A stretch of 64,000 nt of DNA, taken from an uncultured Flavobacteriaceae bacterium. GTDB taxonomy: Bacteria; Bacteroidota; Bacteroidia; Flavobacteriales; Flavobacteriaceae. The notes beneath the pieces are model-generated. The model made no database searches and was not told where the DNA came from. It saw only the letters and a program-made list of their open reading frames with translations. The DNA lies in assembly GCA_947501845.1 (NCBI GenBank), contig CANMXP010000002.1, forward strand, positions 310,001 to 374,000, read 5' to 3'. Each line of letters starts with the position of its first letter. The first letter of the stretch is position 1. Positions 37,717-48,506 of the stretch are shown piece by piece. The translations under genes and the position numbers were made by a program.

Positions 37717-38451
37717 TTAATTCAATTTATTAATAAGCTGCTGTGCTTGTTCATAATCATCTGCACCTTCAGGGATGGTTTTCAATATTTTTAAACAGGC
37801 AGTATGATCTTTCTGTTTTAATTTGCTTAGAGCTAAATACCAGATTGCTTTATTTTTATAAACTGAAGGACTATTAGAAAGTTTACCCAACAGATTATCA
37901 GCTTCATCAAATTTATCTAACTCCAATAATGCAATACCTCTATATAATTGTAATTCTTTATTTGAATCATCTTTGTTTAACAGCTCACTAAAAGCAGCTT
38001 CGGCTTCGGCAAAGTTTTTATTATTAAAAGCATTTTCGGCGATTTCTAAGAGTTCATCTTGTCCTCCTCTAGAGATTAAACTAATCGTTTCGTAATTATT
38101 GTAATCATTAAAAGTAGGGTTAGAGAAATTATTGAATGTAAAGATTCCTATCAATAAAACAACACTTGCTGCTATAGCATATTGCCAAGGCTTAAAACGG
38201 ACTACTTTTTTAGTTGTTTCCTCCTTTTCAAAATAGGTTTTAGAAATGGTTTTTAAATTATTTTGAAAGGCAGTCGACGCTGCTTCATCTTCAAATTTAT
38301 GTTCTAAAAAAGAAGACAATTCTTTATAGGTATTAAATGCTTGATTAAAATCTGGTTCATTTTTTAATCGTGACTCAAAGGCAATTATCCCATCTTGAGA
38401 TAATTCCTTAGATAAGTAGGCTTCGAATAATATGTAATTCTGGTCTTCCAT
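37717..38451 (-). CDS. Anti-sigma candidate: single-TM protein with periplasmic TPRs
   Basis: 244 residues: a cytoplasmic N-terminal ~85 residues with an anti-sigma-like helical region (ILFEAYLSKELSQDGIIAFESRL), one TM helix (about 90-106, AIAASVVLLIGIFTF) and a TPR-bearing periplasmic part (AENAFNNKNFAEAEAAFSEL, LELDKFDEADNLL). It is 5 nt downstream of the sigma factor gene on the same strand, the usual position of an anti-sigma factor. The TPR sensor part is family-typical of Bacteroidota sigma partners. Target and signal unknown. Confidence 0.75.
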   Translation of the reverse strand: MEDQNYILFEAYLSKELSQDGIIAFESRLKNEPDFNQAFNTYKELSSFLEHKFEDEAASTAFQNNLKTISKTYFEKEETTKKVVRFKPWQYAIAASVVLLIGIFTFNNFSNPTFNDYNNYETISLISRGGQDELLEIAENAFNNKNFAEAEAAFSELLNKDDSNKELQLYRGIALLELDKFDEADNLLGKLSNSPSVYKNKAIWYLALSKLKQKDHTACLKILKTIPEGADDYEQAQQLINKLN

Positions 38452-38456
38452 GGCTA

Positions 38457-39038
38457 TTAATTATTAAGTTGGTTAAATTTTGGTGACTCTCGAACCAGCT
38501 CTGTTAATTTACCAATACATAAAGATTTCTTTTTTCTAGCGTAGGCATATGTTACACCTAAACTTTTTGCGACTTCTTCCATCGATTTTATTTTAAAAGT
38601 AGCCGTTAATAGATCTTTACAAGCGGTTCCAAGTTTTTGAAACATTTCCGTAAATAAGGCTTGTTTCTCACCAAATACAGATGTTTCAAAAGCTAGTTCT
38701 TGGGCTTCATCACCTTTAGATAAAACGTCTTCATTAATTGTTACCTCTTTATTAGAAGATTTTTTTAATTCATTTAACCATTTTCTTTTACATAGCAAAA
38801 AGAAATAGGCATCGAACGGACAAGTAAGTTGTAATTTGTTTTGGCTTGCCTGATTATAAATAGTTATTAAAGTATCCTGTATAACATCTTGGGCCTTATC
38901 ACTATCTCCACTATTCTGCTTAATGTAATTAATCACTTTAGGCGCAAACTTATCATATATAGCTTGTATAACAAACGAGTTGTTTTTAAACAATCCGTCT
39001 ATATATTTCTGGTCTTCGTGTATTTTTTTTTCACTCAT
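38457..39038 (-). CDS. ECF-like sigma-70 family RNA polymerase sigma factor
   Basis: 193 residues. Region 2 covers about 22-95 (IQAIYDKFAPKVINYIKQN, DKAQDVIQDTLITIYN, CPFDAYFFLLCKRKW). Region 4 covers about 125-180 (LTATFKIKSMEEVAKSLGVTYAYARKKKSLC), a helix-turn-helix for the -35 box. No region 3 is visible. Paired with the TPR anti-sigma candidate. Three GGGTAACA boxes upstream of nearby genes could be its promoters. Confidence 0.9.
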   Translation of the reverse strand: MSEKKIHEDQKYIDGLFKNNSFVIQAIYDKFAPKVINYIKQNSGDSDKAQDVIQDTLITIYNQASQNKLQLTCPFDAYFFLLCKRKWLNELKKSSNKEVTINEDVLSKGDEAQELAFETSVFGEKQALFTEMFQKLGTACKDLLTATFKIKSMEEVAKSLGVTYAYARKKKSLCIGKLTELVRESPKFNQLNN

Positions 39039-41888: not shown

Positions 41889-41931
41889 AATGACACTTTT
41901 TGTATATTTAAAATCTATTAACCTTGTCTCT

Positions 41932-43890
41932 ATGGATAAACGATTCCTTTTTATTTGCTTTTCTTTTTTATGTATATATGGTTATTCGCAACAATTACTT
42001 GTTAACGACACCCTTGTAAGAACAGCAACCATTAAGAGTACTACAAATGGTAATGAAACAACTTTTACGCCACAAATACCAGCCTTAAATCAAATTGCTG
42101 GAGCACCAAAAGCATTTTACACCTATTATTGGGAGTTTGGTGATGGACATTACAGTACCGAAGAAAAGCCCAAGCACGTTTATAAAAACAAAGGCGAATA
42201 TGACGTAAAATTATGGGCTACCAATAATTACGACACAGGCAAACCACCAACAACAAGACCTAAAAAAATAGCGGTTAATTCTATTACAACAAACTATCAA
42301 GATCTGGCTACTATGGATGAAGGTTTTACATTAAAGCGCAATCGCGAGCCTATTCCCGAAGAAGAAATAGTAGCTATAATGAGTTATAAGAACAATAAAG
42401 ACTATAGAACAAACGGAAAAATATATCTCTTCTATAATGAACTTAAATATAAAGCTAATAATTTTGAATTGTTAGAAACCAGAACCCATCATAACGAAAA
42501 AAACATTTTAACAGATGGAGCCATTGCTTACACTAATAGTATTGATGATGAAGGGACTTACTTAGCTTCTTTAAATAATGACCTTATAAAATCAAATATT
42601 GTATTACAAGATTCGACAGAAAAGATCAACCTGCCCTTGACTATTTCAGAATCTAAAGCATATTATAAGGATTGGAGTCTTTTAGAATTCGATAATATGC
42701 AACCCGATGAAGAACGCCATATCTTTTTCAGTTTAAAAACAACACCAGAAATGGTTAAAGATACTAGTGCCATTATATCGGTACGTGGTATTTATATACC
42801 AGATAACAATTACGACAATCATAAGGTAAAAGACATGGAAATGGAAATTGTTACTTCTCACGATCCTAACAAAATGTCATCAAACGGCACCTTTATGAAT
42901 TATAGGTTGGTTCGCTTTAAAACCTTAAAATACAAAATTAAGTTCCAGAATAATGGCGAAGGTCCCGCAAGAACCATTCGATTGGAAACGGATATTCCTG
43001 AAATGCTGGATAAATCGACCTTAGAGGTTATGGACATGTATCCTAAATGTGATATCTGCCCTAAACGAGAAGTACTTTATAGCTGCTTAGATACCACATT
43101 TACAGACGCACAAGCTATTTTTACTTTTAAAAATATTTACCTTCCAGGAAGTGAACAAAAAAACGTAAAAGAATACGATTCTACAAAGGGGTTTGTAAAG
43201 TACAAAATTAAGTTTGCTAAAGATTTCCACAAGAAAAAAACGAAAAGTAAAACCGCTATTATCTTTGATAAAAATGATCCTATTATTACCAATTATGCGA
43301 CTACTCGTTTTTTGCCTGGTATATCTATTGGTGTTAAATCGGGGTATAACTCGTTTAGCGACTTAAAAAATTCTGAGAGCTACTTTTTAGGCGTGACATT
43401 GTCTCCTTATAAATCCTACAGATGGTATTGGCAAGTGGAGCTTATGAATAATTTCCATAATTATGATTCGAATACCGATATTAGAGAAGAGTTTATCCAA
43501 GAAGCTCAAGGTTTTAGATTTTTTCAACGAACTACAACAAACACCTCTTATAAAAATATTGACTGGGATGTTCCTGTCTTAATCCGTTATAATGTTAATA
43601 ATTATATTGGCTTAGGTGCTGGTTTACAAAATACCATCTCGCTAAGCGAAAAAAGAGAACAGCGTACTTTAATAGAACAGTTTGAAGGAGACACTCCAGA
43701 TGCTCCAGTTTTTAATACAGAAGAAAACACTATTAACGAAACCAATTCTTTCACCAATTTAAGAACAGGTTTATTGTTTGAGGCTACTGCAGGTTTCGCT
43801 AGAATTGGCCCAAGTTTGGGTGCCCGTTATATTATGAATTTTGAAGATGATTTTAATTATTGGCAGTTTTATGCCATTTGGAAATTCTGA
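41932..43890 (+). CDS. PKD-domain outer-membrane barrel protein
   Basis: Start set at ATG 41932 (MDKRFLFICFSFLC..., signal peptide ending YGYSQ); the longest frame begins at 41890. 652 residues. A PKD domain lies at about 55-110 (YYWEFGDGHYSTEEKPKHVY), followed by a long Ig-like/DUF11-like segment (GEGPARTIRLETDIPEML) containing four Cys (CDICPKREVLYSC), then a C-terminal barrel (about 460-652; VSWYWQVELM-like strands, LGARYIMNFEDDF). It is the first gene of a four-gene string and shares 30 nt of frame space with the next ORF. Likely a surface sensor/anchor. Confidence 0.75.
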   Translation: MDKRFLFICFSFLCIYGYSQQLLVNDTLVRTATIKSTTNGNETTFTPQIPALNQIAGAPKAFYTYYWEFGDGHYSTEEKPKHVYKNKGEYDVKLWATNNYDTGKPPTTRPKKIAVNSITTNYQDLATMDEGFTLKRNREPIPEEEIVAIMSYKNNKDYRTNGKIYLFYNELKYKANNFELLETRTHHNEKNILTDGAIAYTNSIDDEGTYLASLNNDLIKSNIVLQDSTEKINLPLTISESKAYYKDWSLLEFDNMQPDEERHIFFSLKTTPEMVKDTSAIISVRGIYIPDNNYDNHKVKDMEMEIVTSHDPNKMSSNGTFMNYRLVRFKTLKYKIKFQNNGEGPARTIRLETDIPEMLDKSTLEVMDMYPKCDICPKREVLYSCLDTTFTDAQAIFTFKNIYLPGSEQKNVKEYDSTKGFVKYKIKFAKDFHKKKTKSKTAIIFDKNDPIITNYATTRFLPGISIGVKSGYNSFSDLKNSESYFLGVTLSPYKSYRWYWQVELMNNFHNYDSNTDIREEFIQEAQGFRFFQRTTTNTSYKNIDWDVPVLIRYNVNNYIGLGAGLQNTISLSEKREQRTLIEQFEGDTPDAPVFNTEENTINETNSFTNLRTGLLFEATAGFARIGPSLGARYIMNFEDDFNYWQFYAIWKF

Positions 43891-43919
43891 AACTAAGCGT
43901 TATTTGGCAGCTCACTATT

Positions 43920-46511
43920 ATGAAAAAACTAAGTTTAATTTTCTTTTTAATTTATGGAGCTGCTTTATCTCAAAATTTAGAAGAAGCCATTTATATAGCT
44001 GCCGAAACATTTATTAACAATCCAAATAGTGCCTCTCTAAACCTTTTAAGCAAACAGGAATCTGCATTTAAAAAACAAATTAAGAACAAAAGTGAGCAAT
44101 TAGCACTTGTTTTTTTACAAAGTCATAAAGGATTTTACTTAGAGCAAAATACGCAATTAAAAGAGGCTATCATCACTTTTGAAGATGCTTTAAACCGTTT
44201 TAAAATCAACGAACTTTCAAAACTTTCCGATTTCGATATTATAGAAAGCTGTCTTATCCCTTTAGGTAACCTATATACTAAAACAGGCGATTATACGAAT
44301 GCTGAAAATATAATAAAACAGTATATCTTCTTAGCTGAAAAGAACAATCATATTAAGCATCAAGTAAGCGGTGCAATCAATCTAGCCATTTTATACCAAA
44401 CCATAGGGAAGCACGAAACAGCGTTAAAACTAACTTCCAATTACCTCAATAAGCAAAATATAAGTAAGCATCAAAAGCAAAAAATCATTCAATTAAATAT
44501 AGACAGCCAAATTGCATTAAACCTAATAAACAATGTTTCAGATATTCCCAAAACAATTCATAATAGTACTTATGGTGAATACAGAAACCATTATCAAGTT
44601 CAATTACAGCAAGGCAACTATGCAGCCGCATTAAAGGCTTTCAATAAAGCAAAAATGCATATTACTAAAGACAGTTTATCAAGAAGACGGCTTGCAAAAT
44701 ACTATTTAGAAGAAGCTCAACTTAACAAATTAACAAACGATTTAAACGATGCTAAGCACAGCTTGAATTTAGCACTTCAAACATTGTTACCAAGCATGAA
44801 ATCTGTTGAATATCTTGATAAAAACAACTTATATGCCGAAAACACATTTATAGATATTTTTGATTTATATGCTACCCTTCAAAAAGACTATAAATTAGCA
44901 CTTAAGTATTATGATTTAAGTTTTTACGTATCCCAATTATTAGAAAATAACTGGACTTCTCAGGAAAACAAAATATCGAATCAAGCAGCAAATAGAATTC
45001 GTAGCGAAAAATGTATAGATATTCTTTTTAATGAATACCAAACCACGCAGAGTACTACACTTTTATTCTCTGCTTTCCAATACGCAGAATTAAATAAATC
45101 GGGCATACTAAAAGAACGGTCCATAAAAAAAATGCTTTTACAGCAACATCCCAACGATAGTTTACTTCTTGAAGAAGCTCATTTATTTAAGGAACAAGAA
45201 GAAATAACTCACCTCCTAATCAATGAGCAATTAGGCAAATCGCAAGCATCTGTAATCACAACCTTAAGCTCTAATTTAAATGCCATAAGTATTAAATTAA
45301 AAACACTTAAAGAAGCTATAAATAAAAAATATCCCGATTTAAAAAAATCTGATTTTTTGGTTGATGACATCCAAACCAAGTTACTAAAGGACAAAGCTGT
45401 TTTGGTTGAATACTTTTATGGCAAAAAAAACATCTATCAATTTGTAATTACCAATGATGGCCTTAATCTTAATAAAATAATCTTGGATGAAATTGCAAAA
45501 AAACACATTACAGGTTTTATTCATTTATTTGATTCTGCTTCTATAATAAATAACGATATAAGCAAATTTACAAGCGCTGCTTTCAAGCTTTATAATGTCT
45601 TGAATTTTTCAAAAGTATCAGGTTTCAAAAATGTGATTATTATTCCAGATGGCCTATTAAATTTTATACCGTTTGAAGCTTTACTCACATCTAAAACAAA
45701 TACAACGAGCTTTTCAAGAATGCCCTTTGTCATGCAAAGACAAAGCATCGTTTACAATACAAGTACCACTTTTTATCTGAAAGAAGGGGGAACAAATAAT
45801 GTAAATACGCTTCTCGGTATCTTTCCTGTATTTGAAAAAACAAACAATAGCTTAACATATTCTATTGATGAAGCCAATGTTATTAAAGAAGAAATGGATG
45901 CCACTCTTTTTTTAAGGGAGCAAGCAACAAAAGAAACCTTCATTAAAAACAGTTCAAACTATGGCATTATACATTTATCTACGCATGCCAGTAGTGGCGA
46001 TTTTTCGATATCAGCAAATATTGACTTTTACAAAAACACGATGTCTTTAAACGAGTTATACAGCCTTAATTTAAATACAAACCTTGTTGTTTTAAGTGCT
46101 TGCGAAACTGGTATTGGGAAATTGTATAAAGGTGAAGGTGCTATGAGCATAGCTCGGGGATTTCAATATGCTGGAGCGCAAAACATATTGTTTTCTTTAT
46201 GGCAGATAAACGATTTATCGACTTCGAAAATCATGCAATCTTTTTATAAAAATTATAGCGATAATAGGTCTGCCAATGTTTCAAATCGTCAATCAAAATT
46301 AGATTACTTAGAAGATGATACTATTAGTAATATAAAAAAGTCGCCTTATTATTGGAGTGCCTTTGTTTACTACGGTGAATTAACGGAATCTGCCAACGAC
46401 TATACATTAATTTATATCGCTGTTAGCCTATTTATCCTCTTGATTATATTACTTTTACTGTTGAGAATTAAAAAATCCAATGGAAAAGACACTACAGGAA
46501 TTTCTTCATGA
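43920..46511 (+). CDS. TPR-CHAT protein with C-terminal membrane anchor
   Basis: Start set at ATG 43920 (MKKLSLIFFLIYGAALSQ, signal peptide). 863 residues. TPR helices fill about 20-400 (AIITFEDALNRF, AALKAFNKAK, SLNLALQTLL). A CHAT (caspase-like) domain follows with His689 in HLSTH and Cys728 in LSACETG, spaced as in active members, plus GEGAMSIARGFQYAGA and ILFSLWQIND. A TM helix (about 828-848) ends the protein, so the protease domain would be periplasmic. Candidate self-activated or regulated protease. The retropepsin ORF overlaps it by 32 nt. Confidence 0.85.
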   Translation: MKKLSLIFFLIYGAALSQNLEEAIYIAAETFINNPNSASLNLLSKQESAFKKQIKNKSEQLALVFLQSHKGFYLEQNTQLKEAIITFEDALNRFKINELSKLSDFDIIESCLIPLGNLYTKTGDYTNAENIIKQYIFLAEKNNHIKHQVSGAINLAILYQTIGKHETALKLTSNYLNKQNISKHQKQKIIQLNIDSQIALNLINNVSDIPKTIHNSTYGEYRNHYQVQLQQGNYAAALKAFNKAKMHITKDSLSRRRLAKYYLEEAQLNKLTNDLNDAKHSLNLALQTLLPSMKSVEYLDKNNLYAENTFIDIFDLYATLQKDYKLALKYYDLSFYVSQLLENNWTSQENKISNQAANRIRSEKCIDILFNEYQTTQSTTLLFSAFQYAELNKSGILKERSIKKMLLQQHPNDSLLLEEAHLFKEQEEITHLLINEQLGKSQASVITTLSSNLNAISIKLKTLKEAINKKYPDLKKSDFLVDDIQTKLLKDKAVLVEYFYGKKNIYQFVITNDGLNLNKIILDEIAKKHITGFIHLFDSASIINNDISKFTSAAFKLYNVLNFSKVSGFKNVIIIPDGLLNFIPFEALLTSKTNTTSFSRMPFVMQRQSIVYNTSTTFYLKEGGTNNVNTLLGIFPVFEKTNNSLTYSIDEANVIKEEMDATLFLREQATKETFIKNSSNYGIIHLSTHASSGDFSISANIDFYKNTMSLNELYSLNLNTNLVVLSACETGIGKLYKGEGAMSIARGFQYAGAQNILFSLWQINDLSTSKIMQSFYKNYSDNRSANVSNRQSKLDYLEDDTISNIKKSPYYWSAFVYYGELTESANDYTLIYIAVSLFILLIILLLLLRIKKSNGKDTTGISS

Positions 46512-46923
46512 AAAAGAGTACGTTAAAGTAAAACTGCACCTTACTAAAACGAATCATTTTGAAATAAAAGCAACTATAAATGGTCATAAAGGCTTATTTA
46601 TTTTAGATACTGGTGCCTCAAATTCTTGCGTAGGATTTGAAGCTATTGAAACCTTTAATCTAAAAACTCAAGATTCTGTTATTAAAGCCGCTGGTGCAGG
46701 TGCAACAGATATGGACACCAAAATGTCCAAAAAAAATAAAATAAGAATAGGGAAATGGAAACGTAATAAAGTTGTTTTAGTTTTATTTAACCTTACCCAT
46801 GTCAATACGGCCTTAATAAATCATAATTCTAAGCCCGTTGATGGCATTATAGGAGCAGATATTTTAAAAAAAGCAAAAGCTATTATAGATTATGAAAAGA
46901 AATATCTATATTTAAAACTATAA
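46480..46923 (+). CDS. Retropepsin-like aspartic protease
   Basis: 147 residues. One catalytic motif LFILDTGASN with Asp43 and the second hallmark (GIIGADIL), as in single-domain pepsins that act as dimers. No signal peptide or TM is visible. It starts inside the CHAT gene (32-nt overlap), so expression is coupled to it. Two proteases of different classes in one operon suggest a cascade or regulated cleavage (inference). Confidence 0.8.
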   Translation: MEKTLQEFLHEKEYVKVKLHLTKTNHFEIKATINGHKGLFILDTGASNSCVGFEAIETFNLKTQDSVIKAAGAGATDMDTKMSKKNKIRIGKWKRNKVVLVLFNLTHVNTALINHNSKPVDGIIGADILKKAKAIIDYEKKYLYLKL

Positions 46924-46995
46924 ACACATATTTAAACATATATATAAACATAATCTTACATTTTTAATTAATAGCATTTTAATTCTCCTCAAGTA

Positions 46996-47628
46996 ATGAA
47001 CACCTCAATAGTGATTGCCGATGATCATCCGTTGATGTTAAGAGGTCTATCCGACTTTTTAACTTCAAAAGGCTTCAATATAATAGGAAGTGCTCAAGAT
47101 GGAAATACCGCCTATAATCTTATCGTAAAACTAAAACCCGAATTAGCCATTCTGGATATAAGGATGCCACATAAGACAGGCTTGGAAATAGCCGAAGCCT
47201 GTAAAAAAAACAATTTGAATACTAAAGTTATCCTTATCACTTTTGATAAAGAGGAAGAACTTTACGACAAGGCTAAAGAATTTAATGTTTTCGGGTATCT
47301 CTTAAAAGAGTTTGCTATCGAAGAAATTGAAACTTGTATAAAACATGTTACAAATGGCAAGCCTTATTTTAGTGAAGAAATTGCATCTTATTTAAACGCA
47401 AGTAGTTTGGAACAAAAACCGGACACATTAAATTTATTAACGAAATCTGAACTAAAAATAGTGAAGCTTATTTCCGAAAATAAAACAAGCCAGGGTATTG
47501 CCCAAGAGCTATCCATCTCTGTTCGTACTGTAGATAAGCATAGAAGTAATATAGTTGCCAAATTAGGTTTAGACAATAGACCTACATCTCTTTCAATTTG
47601 GGCAAATTTAAATAAAGTTCATTTTTAG
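46996..47628 (+). CDS. Orphan NarL/FixJ-type response regulator
   Basis: 210 residues. Receiver domain with acidic pair D9/D10, phospho-acceptor Asp54 (LAILDIRMP), and the T and K motif region (LITFDK, LLKE). Output HTH of the LuxR type at about 145-205 (LTKSELKIVKLISENKTSQGIAQELSISVRTVDKH). No histidine kinase is adjacent. It ends 2 nt before an inverted repeat that also occurs 530 bp downstream, and the sRNA modules lie directly behind it. Confidence 0.9.
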   Translation: MNTSIVIADDHPLMLRGLSDFLTSKGFNIIGSAQDGNTAYNLIVKLKPELAILDIRMPHKTGLEIAEACKKNNLNTKVILITFDKEEELYDKAKEFNVFGYLLKEFAIEEIETCIKHVTNGKPYFSEEIASYLNASSLEQKPDTLNLLTKSELKIVKLISENKTSQGIAQELSISVRTVDKHRSNIVAKLGLDNRPTSLSIWANLNKVHF

Positions 47629-47656
47629 AAAAAATACGTAGAACTGCGTATTTTTT
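47629..47656. promoter_or_regulatory. Inverted repeat TACGTA-GAAC-TGCGTA, copy A
   Basis: Perfect 10-bp arms AAAAAATACG (47629-47638) / CGTATTTTTT (47647-47656) around TAGAACTG. It can act as the terminator of the response regulator gene and as an operator about 25 nt upstream of the TACCTTTA -7-like box at 47674. Confidence 0.6.
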
Positions 47657-47673
47657 TTCTCGTATACAGAACA

Positions 47674-47681
47674 TACCTTTA
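47674..47681 (+). promoter_or_regulatory. -7-like box TACCTTTA of sRNA candidate A
   Basis: Differs from TANNTTTG at the last base. The same box is found at 48203 at exactly the same distance from the second inverted repeat. Confidence 0.5.
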
Positions 47682-47686
47682 CAAGG

Positions 47687-47758
47687 CTATTAATTAGTTC
47701 TTAGGGAGAATTATAGAAGGCTCTAAATTGTTATGATTTAGAGCTTTCGCTTTTTATA
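47687..47758 (+). ncRNA. Candidate ~70-nt small RNA A
   Basis: Predicted transcript from about 47687 to the terminator formed by GCTCTAAAT (47720-47728) / ATTTAGAGC (47736-47744) and the T-rich tail to 47755. Its 5' part (GCTATTAATTAGTTCTTAGG) is nearly identical to that of candidate B, while the 3' hairpins differ. No ORF of note. Transcript ends are inferred. Confidence 0.5.
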
Positions 47759-47915
47759 AACTCTTCTTTTAAATACAACATTTTTTTGAAAGCAAACTAT
47801 TTATGGAACATAGCCTTGGAAGTGCTTTTCTATAAACTCAGGTTTTCGTCTTTTGGAGCAAAAGTTGAAATTCTTGTATTTAGATGAACTCGATTCAACT
47901 TTAGTTTTATTTAAA

Positions 47916-47991
47916 TGTCAGGTTGAGAGCTGTCGAAACCTAATTAAAACAACTGAATTTTTAAAACCTTTCGACTGCGCTCCAGGTGACA
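47916..47991. repeat. Dispersed flavobacterial imperfect palindrome
   Basis: Arm TGTCAGGTTGAGAGCTGTCG... (47916-47940) is the imperfect reverse complement of CCTTTCGACTGCGCTCCAGG... ending TGACA (47967-47991). Matches the family of TGACA/CGACTGCGCTC intergenic repeats common in flavobacteria; fragments occur at 1668-1695 and 62721-62740. Confidence 0.6.
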
Positions 47992-48158
47992 AGCTTTATT
48001 GTATTGAGCTTTTGTCTATTTCTTTATAAATTTTATGTCGAGTTAGATTATCGTTTTATTTTTTATGCTATGTTTTGTGGTAATGAGTCTTACGATTTCA
48101 CGGAAATAACAAATTCAAAAAAACCCATCACAGAGCATGGAGAAATTCTTTTTTAATT

Positions 48159-48184
48159 AAAAATACGTAGAACTGCGTATTTTT
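48159..48184. promoter_or_regulatory. Inverted repeat TACGTA-GAAC-TGCGTA, copy B
   Basis: AAAAATACG (48159-48167) / CGTATTTTT (48176-48184) around TAGAACTG, identical to copy A. Not preceded by a gene here, so it cannot be explained as a gene terminator; an operator role is favoured. Confidence 0.6.
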
Positions 48185-48202
48185 TTTTTCATGCATGCAA
48201 CA

Positions 48203-48210
48203 TACCTTTA
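48203..48210 (+). promoter_or_regulatory. -7-like box TACCTTTA of sRNA candidate B
   Basis: Same box and spacing from the inverted repeat as in copy A. Confidence 0.5.
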
Positions 48211-48215
48211 CGCTG

Positions 48216-48288
48216 CTATTAATTAATTCTTTAGAGAGAAAGAATTTTTCACAAAAACTCTGTGTTATATAGGCGCAGAGTTTTTATC
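48216..48288 (+). ncRNA. Candidate ~70-nt small RNA B
   Basis: Predicted start about 48216; ends at the terminator AAAAACTCTGTG (48253-48264) / CGCAGAGTTTTT (48274-48285), 12 bp with one G-T pair. 5' part (GCTATTAATTAATTCTTTAG) matches candidate A. Both predicted RNAs are about 70 nt. No RNA data available. Confidence 0.5.
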
Positions 48289-48329: not shown

Positions 48330-48431
48330 ATGGAAAAAGGTAACAATGTTATTGACAAATACTGTATGATAGGGTTAGCTATTTTAGTAATTATTGTTAT
48401 TTCTATAAACCTTATAATGTGTTTTAGTTAG
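48330..48431 (+). CDS. 33-residue single-TM peptide B
   Basis: ATG at 48330 to TAG at 48431. Polar start (MEKGNNVIDKYC) and one hydrophobic helix (MIGLAILVIIVISINLIM), ending MCFS. Same length and layout as peptide A at 41761, and also followed by its own strong hairpin. Lies just behind sRNA candidate B. Coding status unproven. Confidence 0.45.
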   Translation: MEKGNNVIDKYCMIGLAILVIIVISINLIMCFS

Positions 48432-48447
48432 TTATATTTAGTTAAAG

Positions 48448-48485
48448 AAAAGGCGCTATCAATTGTGTAATTGATAGCGCCTTTT
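48448..48485. terminator. Bidirectional terminator (peptide B and odhB)
   Basis: 17-bp perfect stem AAAAGGCGCTATCAATT (48448-48464) / AATTGATAGCGCCTTTT (48469-48485), loop GTGT. Confidence 0.92.
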
Positions 48486-48506
48486 TTATTTAATATCAGA
48501 TACTTA

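Follow-up and report, generated by a model that had tools for sequence, protein, structure and literature searches.

The window analysed here is a 64,000-nucleotide stretch of DNA from a Flavivirga-like member of the Flavobacteriaceae. A string of genes at 41890–47628 encodes a PKD protein, a TPR-CHAT protein (43860–46511, + strand; Pfam, ORF), a retropepsin-like aspartyl protease (46480–46923, + strand; PF13650 by Pfam) and, beside the protease, a NarL/FixJ-type response regulator of 210 aa (46996–47628, + strand). The regulator carries both a PF00072 receiver and a PF00196 GerE helix-turn-helix domain (Pfam, ORF), the combination that defines NarL/FixJ response regulators. Behind it lie two modules, A and B, 529 bp apart, each with three parts: an inverted repeat of 22 bp, a −7 box and a predicted two-hairpin RNA starting with GCUAUUAAUUA; ~390 bp (47760–48150) separate the two copies. 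A conserved gene for a 33-codon single-helix membrane protein (48330–48431, + strand) lies downstream of the last module, and a terminator-like hairpin with a T run (48446–48487, + strand; terminator scan) stands behind it.

A sequence-only reading had described twin modules ~530 bp apart with identical spacing, and both copies are present as described, with the 22-mer, the box and the RNA 5′ start exact in each. The 22-mer AAATACGTAGAACTGCGTATTT occupies 47632–47653 (operator A) and, in identical form, 48161–48182 (operator B), neither assigned to a strand; it forms an inverted repeat of the 7-2-7 type, TACGTAG-AA-CTGCGTA, within A/T arms. The box TACCTTTA lies at 47674–47681 in promoter A, where its placement was also checked in relatives, and at 48203–48210 in promoter B (both + strand). 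The RNA start GCTATTAATTA follows at 47686 (A) and 48215 (B), and since the TAnnTTTG-type box spans −12 to −5 in the accessible text of PMC9723704, the G residues at these two positions are the predicted +1. The modules agree at 66 of 84 positions (−8 to +75 from the repeat start), beyond which the terminators differ. In the 5.37-Mb genome of origin, an operator search allowing up to three mismatches returned the two sites of the window as its sole matches, with none for the reversed operator at the same threshold, and a search for operator plus box at the module spacing (up to one mismatch) yielded just modules A and B.

RNA A (47686–47756, + strand, end approximate) is delimited by its fold, the terminator scan, covariation and a covariance model match of 136.9 bits. 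It consists of a single-stranded 5′ segment (GCUAUUAAU), hairpin 1 (47695–47713) and a terminator hairpin (47716–47748) followed by a T run. RNA B (48215–48287, + strand, end approximate; fold and a model match of 104.5 bits) shares the 5′ end and has its own hairpin 1 (48225–48246) and a terminator-like hairpin (48253–48285) that differs from that of RNA A and is absent from the list of the consensus terminator scan. Both RNAs folded better than all 200 of their shuffled versions (z −3.7 and −4.7, the fold of RNA B having begun one base late, at 48216), and in each fold 9 unpaired nt at the 5′ end precede a small hairpin and then one resembling a terminator. The expectation that neither transcript contains an ORF holds for RNA A, which no + strand ORF of at least 20 codons overlaps, but needs correcting for RNA B, which two short ORFs overlap (one of 25 codons from 48195, the other of 21 codons, GTG-initiated, from 48262).

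Structural conservation was pronounced in an alignment of 50 modules, in which 94.1% of cells were paired, against just 41.5–56.3% when the structure was slid along the alignment. Changes on both sides of a pair affected 138 cells, compared with 40.5 ± 6.6 in shuffled alignments, and were found in 14 of 14 terminator pairs and two of seven hairpin-1 pairs. Among 171 distinct RNA sequences, 113 contain AGGG within the first 34 nt and were termed A type, a split defined by that very motif, so that its constancy within the type is partly a matter of definition; many of the other 58 carry GAGAG. The proposal that these are sibling RNAs is borne out by conserved 5′ ends, compensatory stem changes and separate terminators. 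Scanning the window against Rfam at gathering scores returned two tRNAs and no other match, and at E ≤ 1 added nothing but matches far below gathering; membership of OmrA/OmrB or any other Rfam family was rejected, as neither sequence nor structure matched. Listings in an open-access library revealed no account of such an RNA family or of its circuit. On the strength of conservation and predicted structure, the modules are best read as sibling small RNA (sRNA) genes of an undescribed family in the Flavobacteriaceae.

The array is real and widely conserved. All 12 same-genus genomes, that of the window included, hold at least two neighbouring copies, with a first operator spacing of 146–147 bp in six, 166 bp in one and 279–551 bp in five, among which is the 529 bp of the window. 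In a scan of named genomes with the regulator as query, 251 relatives were found and the best 80 kept as loci, drawn from Flavivirga, Algibacter, Flaviramulus, Mariniflexile, Hyunsoonleella, Tamlana, Aestuariibaculum, Confluentibacter, Lacinutrix, Oceanihabitans, Hanstruepera, Bizionia, Mangrovimonas and others. In these best 80 of 251, one or more modules lie within 2 kb behind the regulator stop in every locus (189 modules in total): two copies in 52 loci, three in 14, one in six, four in five, six in two and five in one. The loss of the second module or of the repeat from close relatives that keep the regulator, named in the sequence-only reading as evidence against it, was thus not what these 12 of 12 genomes and 80 of 80 loci revealed. 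The first spacing is 130–170 bp in 59 of the 74 loci with at least two copies, and GCTATT follows the operator 16-mer at exactly 35 nt in 166 of the 189 modules (36 nt in 11, 37 nt in five, absent in seven). Copy A, which abuts the regulator gene, had also been regarded as possibly just the terminator of that gene; this is unlikely as its sole role, and was rejected as such, because an operator, a box and a conserved 5′ core belong to the copy itself.

Gene order around the array is likewise retained. The protease adjoins the regulator in all 80 fetched loci (best 80 of 251), and CHAT and PKD genes are present in 28 of these 80, with flanks of up to 4 kb considered. In three genomes of other genera (G020, G024 and G028), where no CHAT or PKD gene was found, the protease is likewise followed in turn by the regulator, the RNAs and odhB. 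Across the family, the covariance model matched 60 of 149 sampled genomes, and order-wide six of 196, all six belonging to the Flavobacteriaceae. The regulator (E ≤ 1e-30, a threshold that may admit paralogs) was detected in 79 of the 149 family genomes, and RNA matches occurred in 55 of these 79 against five of the 70 without it, counts that were matched by hand and are uncorrected for phylogeny. In 52 of the 55 an RNA match is located on the strand of the regulator, no more than 165 bp 3′ of it, the exceptions being G060 and G111, together with G106, whose match is unlisted. RNA matches accompany no regulator in G021, G073, G081, G102 and G154. G154 has lost the regulator and retains two RNA matches at that locus; the operator of the first is damaged, and the second was matched only with the operator part left out. 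G073 has also lost it (best paralog 34%), yet its two modules still have intact operators and a GAnnTTT box, an argument against a strict need for the NarL-type regulator of the window.

The adjacent protein is the likely dedicated regulator of the array, and it likely binds the inverted repeat. That binding, already postulated from the sequence alone, gains indirect support from adjacency, from the 7-2-7 geometry and from covariation of the operator with the DNA-binding helix. Among 17 orthologous loci without an array (15 from genomes without an RNA match; G060 and G111 with one weak distant match each), a TACGTG- or TACGTA-type repeat stands behind the regulator in 15. Covariation was assessed in 96 loci by comparing half-site type with residue x of the motif RTVxKHRSN in the GerE domain, which we take, from the fold, to be the recognition helix. 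TACGCA half-sites accompany D in 82 of 234 cases, H in 25 of 34, E in 0 of 118 and T in 0 of 26, and TACGTG half-sites occur only with E (24 of 118). Since supported branches of the tree provide just one or two independent operator–helix pairs, none of which runs counter to expectation (p = 1 and 0.5), the covariation is suggestive, not proven.

The geometry of the site bears on the direction of control. NarL operators are inverted heptamers with 2 bp between them, as described in the consulted part of PMC4549865, and TACGTAG-AA-CTGCGTA fits this 7-2-7 layout, centred ~43.5 bp before the predicted start. The repeat could conceivably be a repressor site, the RNAs being made when the regulator is inactive: a protein bound near −43.5 might cover a −33 element, and NarL itself represses at some promoters (the same portion of PMC4549865). 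However, the NarL-activated napF and yeaR promoters have 7-2-7 sites at nearly the same position, in the −40s (PMC4549865, same portion), no conserved −33 element is visible in the promoter alignments, which suits an activator-dependent promoter, and a class-2 operator occurs at the same distance. Repression at the repeat is therefore unlikely, and the active regulator would most likely serve as an activator of a sigma-A promoter.

The leader of the regulator mRNA emerges as a candidate pairing target. Its first block (46965–46975, + strand), TAATTAATAGC, is the reverse complement of the RNA 5′ end GCTATTAATTA and lies at the predicted 5′ end of the mRNA, behind a box-like TACATTTT at 46957–46964. 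The second block (46980–46993, + strand), TAATTCTCCTCAAG, is, but for a single mismatch and a single G-U pair, the complement of CTTAGGGAGAATTA in the hairpin-1 region of RNA A. In general form, (T)TAATAGC in the leader faces the RNA 5′ end GCUAUUAA, and CUCCCU or CUCUCUC faces the hairpin-1 loop. Within the best 80 of 251 loci, AATAGC occurs in 51 leaders, against 1, 1 and 0 for its reverse, complement and reverse complement, and both blocks occur in 40; the reversal control for motif 2 (54 against 55) is uninformative, as this pattern reads almost the same backwards. Compared with 60 shuffled leaders, predicted duplexes reached p < 0.05 at the regulator in 37 of 80 loci, at odhB in one of 60 and at the protease in four of 80. 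AATAGC appeared in none of the 17 leaders printed for array-less orthologs, a contrast weakened by the fact that most of these regulators, starting at or within the gene before them, lack a leader of their own.

Together, these data suggest that the RNAs may pair with the leader of their own regulator, in what would be a probable feedback loop. Feedback cannot be the sole reason for the conserved RNA 5′ end, because 29 of the 80 leaders lack AATAGC and 43 of the 80 fail the duplex test, while nearly all RNAs keep that end. The two leader blocks stand in swapped order relative to one continuous duplex, so that one block, or two RNA molecules, would probably pair at a time, and the leader is unstructured (z +1.5), which makes blocking of translation likelier than its opening. 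When the 52 ORF starts of the window were ranked, the regulator leader came second for RNA A, behind a TPR-repeat gene, and fourth for RNA B; ranking within the window would therefore not single it out.

The start of that TPR-repeat gene provides a candidate second site, to be taken as a lead only (38449–38463, − strand; TAATTAATAGCC-ATG, complementary to the RNA 5′ end). The gene follows one with a sigma-70 region 2, and the site overlaps the end of this upstream sigma gene. When TAATTAATAGC was sought within 28 nt of an ATG, the regulator leader matched exactly in 10 of the 12 genus genomes and the TPR-repeat gene, as TAATTAATAGC[CT]ATG, in eight of the 12, the other matches being scattered or locally recurring. 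A search of the same 12 genomes for TAATAGC..CTCC..ATG gave many hits among the matches listed, coding-looking where read, and one for TCTCCCTAAG near an ATG returned the RNA genes themselves plus scattered matches. A pairing-site-like motif in the terminator of the small gene, seen in eight of 80 loci, was dropped.

Overall, we consider it reasonably probable that the locus forms a feedback circuit of the OmrA/OmrB kind, in which sibling RNAs activated by the regulator pair with the regulator mRNA, together with the 33-codon membrane-protein gene. The modules and how widely they are conserved, the structure of the RNAs, the joint variation of operator and regulator and the complementarity were observed; transcription, activation, pairing and its repressing effect are what we infer here. 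The active regulator would bind the 7-2-7 repeat centred ~43.5 bp before +1, and each promoter would give rise to a ~70-nt RNA with the free 5′ end GCUAUUAAU, a purine-loop hairpin (UAGGGAG in RNA A) and a terminator. These RNAs would act by base pairing, the regulator mRNA being one predicted target: the 5′ end and the loop would pair with the two blocks of the short leader and exert negative feedback, much as OmrA/OmrB do on ompR. The last promoter would also serve the membrane-protein gene, and RNA B would therefore double, given transcriptional read-through, as the terminated leader of that gene.

An alternative function for the purine loop is suggested by the GacA/UvrY systems, in which a NarL-family regulator acts through a palindromic operator before several sRNA genes (RsmX/Y/Z, CsrB/C) whose loops carry a GGA-type motif. 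By analogy with CsrB/RsmZ and CsrA, the RNAs of the array might titrate a protein through their AGGGA-bearing loops, with copy number as the dose; a purine loop with GGGA in a hairpin, up to six tandem copies and a regulator of the NarL/GacA type would all fit. Against this, each RNA bears a single motif instead of many, complementary blocks are present in the regulator leader, and CsrA (PF02599) exceeded the cut-off in 0 of 60 genomes, that of the window included, with a weak sub-threshold match in G051; among 14 control genomes searched in the same way, E. coli, B. subtilis and T. maritima were positive. Titration of CsrA was accordingly rejected, and a variant in which another protein is bound falls within the same titration reading, which as a whole we regard as improbable beside base pairing.

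The gene behind copy B bears on a further alternative. The description of copy B needs a correction: it is followed by a gene, the conserved 33-codon ORF, which begins 115 nt after the predicted RNA start. The 33-aa protein matched no Pfam or NCBIfam entry. A single-helix ORF follows the last module in 77 of the 80 loci by hydrophobicity scan, or 76 after L124 was removed by eye, and nine copies from the Flavivirga group gave pS 0.417, pN 0.074 and dN/dS ~0.13 over 36 pairs. In at least five arrays (L128, L138, L140, L143 and L147), the last operator-promoter precedes the small ORF without RNA hairpins. Of the 15 array-less loci that bear an operator, a script detected a small membrane ORF behind it in 13 and reading added L225, which leaves L211 with none, and in eight array-less loci the ATG stands exactly 35 nt after the operator, the RNA start position in arrays. 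From these loci, the ancestral unit would appear to have run from regulator through operator to small membrane gene, the RNAs being duplicated gene starts with added terminators.

The same loci could be taken to mean that the RNAs are still only cis-acting leaders or attenuators, that is, duplicated and prematurely terminated leaders of the small gene with no function in trans: the orthologous loci without RNAs place the same type of operator-promoter before the small ORF, the ATG can occupy the exact RNA start position, and the last module of at least five arrays likewise precedes the ORF. However, what follows the first copies is a terminator and another promoter instead of an ORF, the A core hardly varies from genus to genus, and the same core also occurs under other operators beside other genes, all of which makes a purely cis role improbable. 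We give almost no credence to a type I toxin–antitoxin system with the peptide as toxin and the RNAs as antisense antitoxins, for although a tiny single-helix peptide does sit beside small RNAs, these begin in the sense orientation with the same 5′ end as the leader of the peptide itself, and the locus keeps its place beside odhB across several genera and is linked to a response regulator.

Sibling RNAs also occur under other operators; like the small membrane-protein gene and the complementarity to the regulator leader, they are absent from the sequence-only reading. Thirteen loci away from the regulator (L231–L234, L236, L237, L239, L240 and L242–L246) adjoin a gene of ~256 codons, with PAS_3 and GerE domains in the two tested by Pfam (L231 and L234), and have a MurF-like gene as the other neighbour in most cases (Pfam: L231 only). 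All 13 carry TACTCAAnTTGAGTA, in 14 operators altogether, and the RNA begins exactly 35 nt behind it; the leader motif is found in none of the 13 PAS-GerE regulators, which counts against the feedback reading. In L235, L238 and L247 the RNA core lies beside another response regulator, whose receiver domain is over the Pfam cut-off in L235 and below it in L247; a TACGGnnnnCCGTA palindrome, frequent in L238, precedes the RNA in L238 (two RNAs) and L247 but not in L235. The upstream TPR gene of L235 has a kinase-like match below cut-off. The palindrome differs with the regulator, being of TACGTA type with the NarL-type regulator, TACTCAAnTTGAGTA with PAS-GerE and TACGGnnnnCCGTA with the other response regulator. 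Tentatively, and with somewhat less than even confidence, we propose that the core GCUAUUAAUUAGUUCUUAGGGAGAAUU is an output module shared within the Flavobacteriaceae and acquired separately by LuxR/NarL-type regulators, each with its own palindrome ~34–36 nt before the RNA start. The arrays would have arisen by duplication of the operator-promoter of the small gene with a leader that gained a terminator, so that what was the start of an mRNA became a set of RNAs that act in trans and also restrain the regulator.

The nearest working analogue would be OmrA/OmrB with OmpR. In the accessible text of PMC4211561, these Enterobacterales RNAs are tandem siblings with near-identical 5′ ends that are controlled by OmpR and repress ompR mRNA. 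The window similarly holds adjacent sRNA genes, predicted by conservation and structure, with a shared 5′ end. In contrast, its regulator belongs to the NarL/GerE family, its RNAs differ in sequence, lie beside the regulator gene in one to six copies and occur in Bacteroidota, they do not share the last 35 nt as OmrA and OmrB do, and they are coupled to a small membrane-protein gene. The Qrr sRNAs of Vibrio, according to the same part of PMC4211561, are multiple siblings activated by the response regulator LuxO that pair with its mRNA; Qrr genes are dispersed and answer to LuxO, whereas those of the window are tandem and adjoin a NarL-type regulator. The GacA systems differ from the window in the points set out above, namely CsrA below cut-off, a single loop motif and leader complementarity. 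Within the Bacteroidota, FopS of Bacteroides thetaiotaomicron is, as far as the consulted text of PMC11697453 goes, a multicopy set of paralogous ~65–70-nt sRNAs with a shared 5′ region that bind near start codons. The RNAs described here are likewise a multicopy family with a shared 5′ region, set apart by that description, which in the text consulted links FopS to no adjacent response regulator or operator. Rfp18 of Flavobacterium psychrophilum, a conserved Flavobacteriaceae sRNA whose third stem-loop is predicted to pair with protease mRNAs (PMC9723704, accessible text), is set apart by the description of its pairing stem-loop.

We therefore regard the RNAs of the array as a new family, set in a probable circuit of familiar type; what is unusual is the coupling to a small membrane-protein gene and the occurrence of sibling RNAs under different regulators. 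Post-transcriptional control is poorly mapped in the Flavobacteriaceae, and the circuit, if true, would supply a conserved sRNA family with a named regulator, a predicted operator and a predicted first target, together with natural variants of one to six copies that are testable in culturable marine species. The RNA-less loci that keep regulator, operator and small gene allow a comparison of the states before and after an mRNA start may have turned into a family of sRNAs. As a separate observation, a further TACGTA palindrome lies away from the array in four genomes (G001:C1:4264574, G006:C7:641588, G007:C30:188248 and G008:C49:140150), and in three of these it is flanked on either side by promoter-like boxes.
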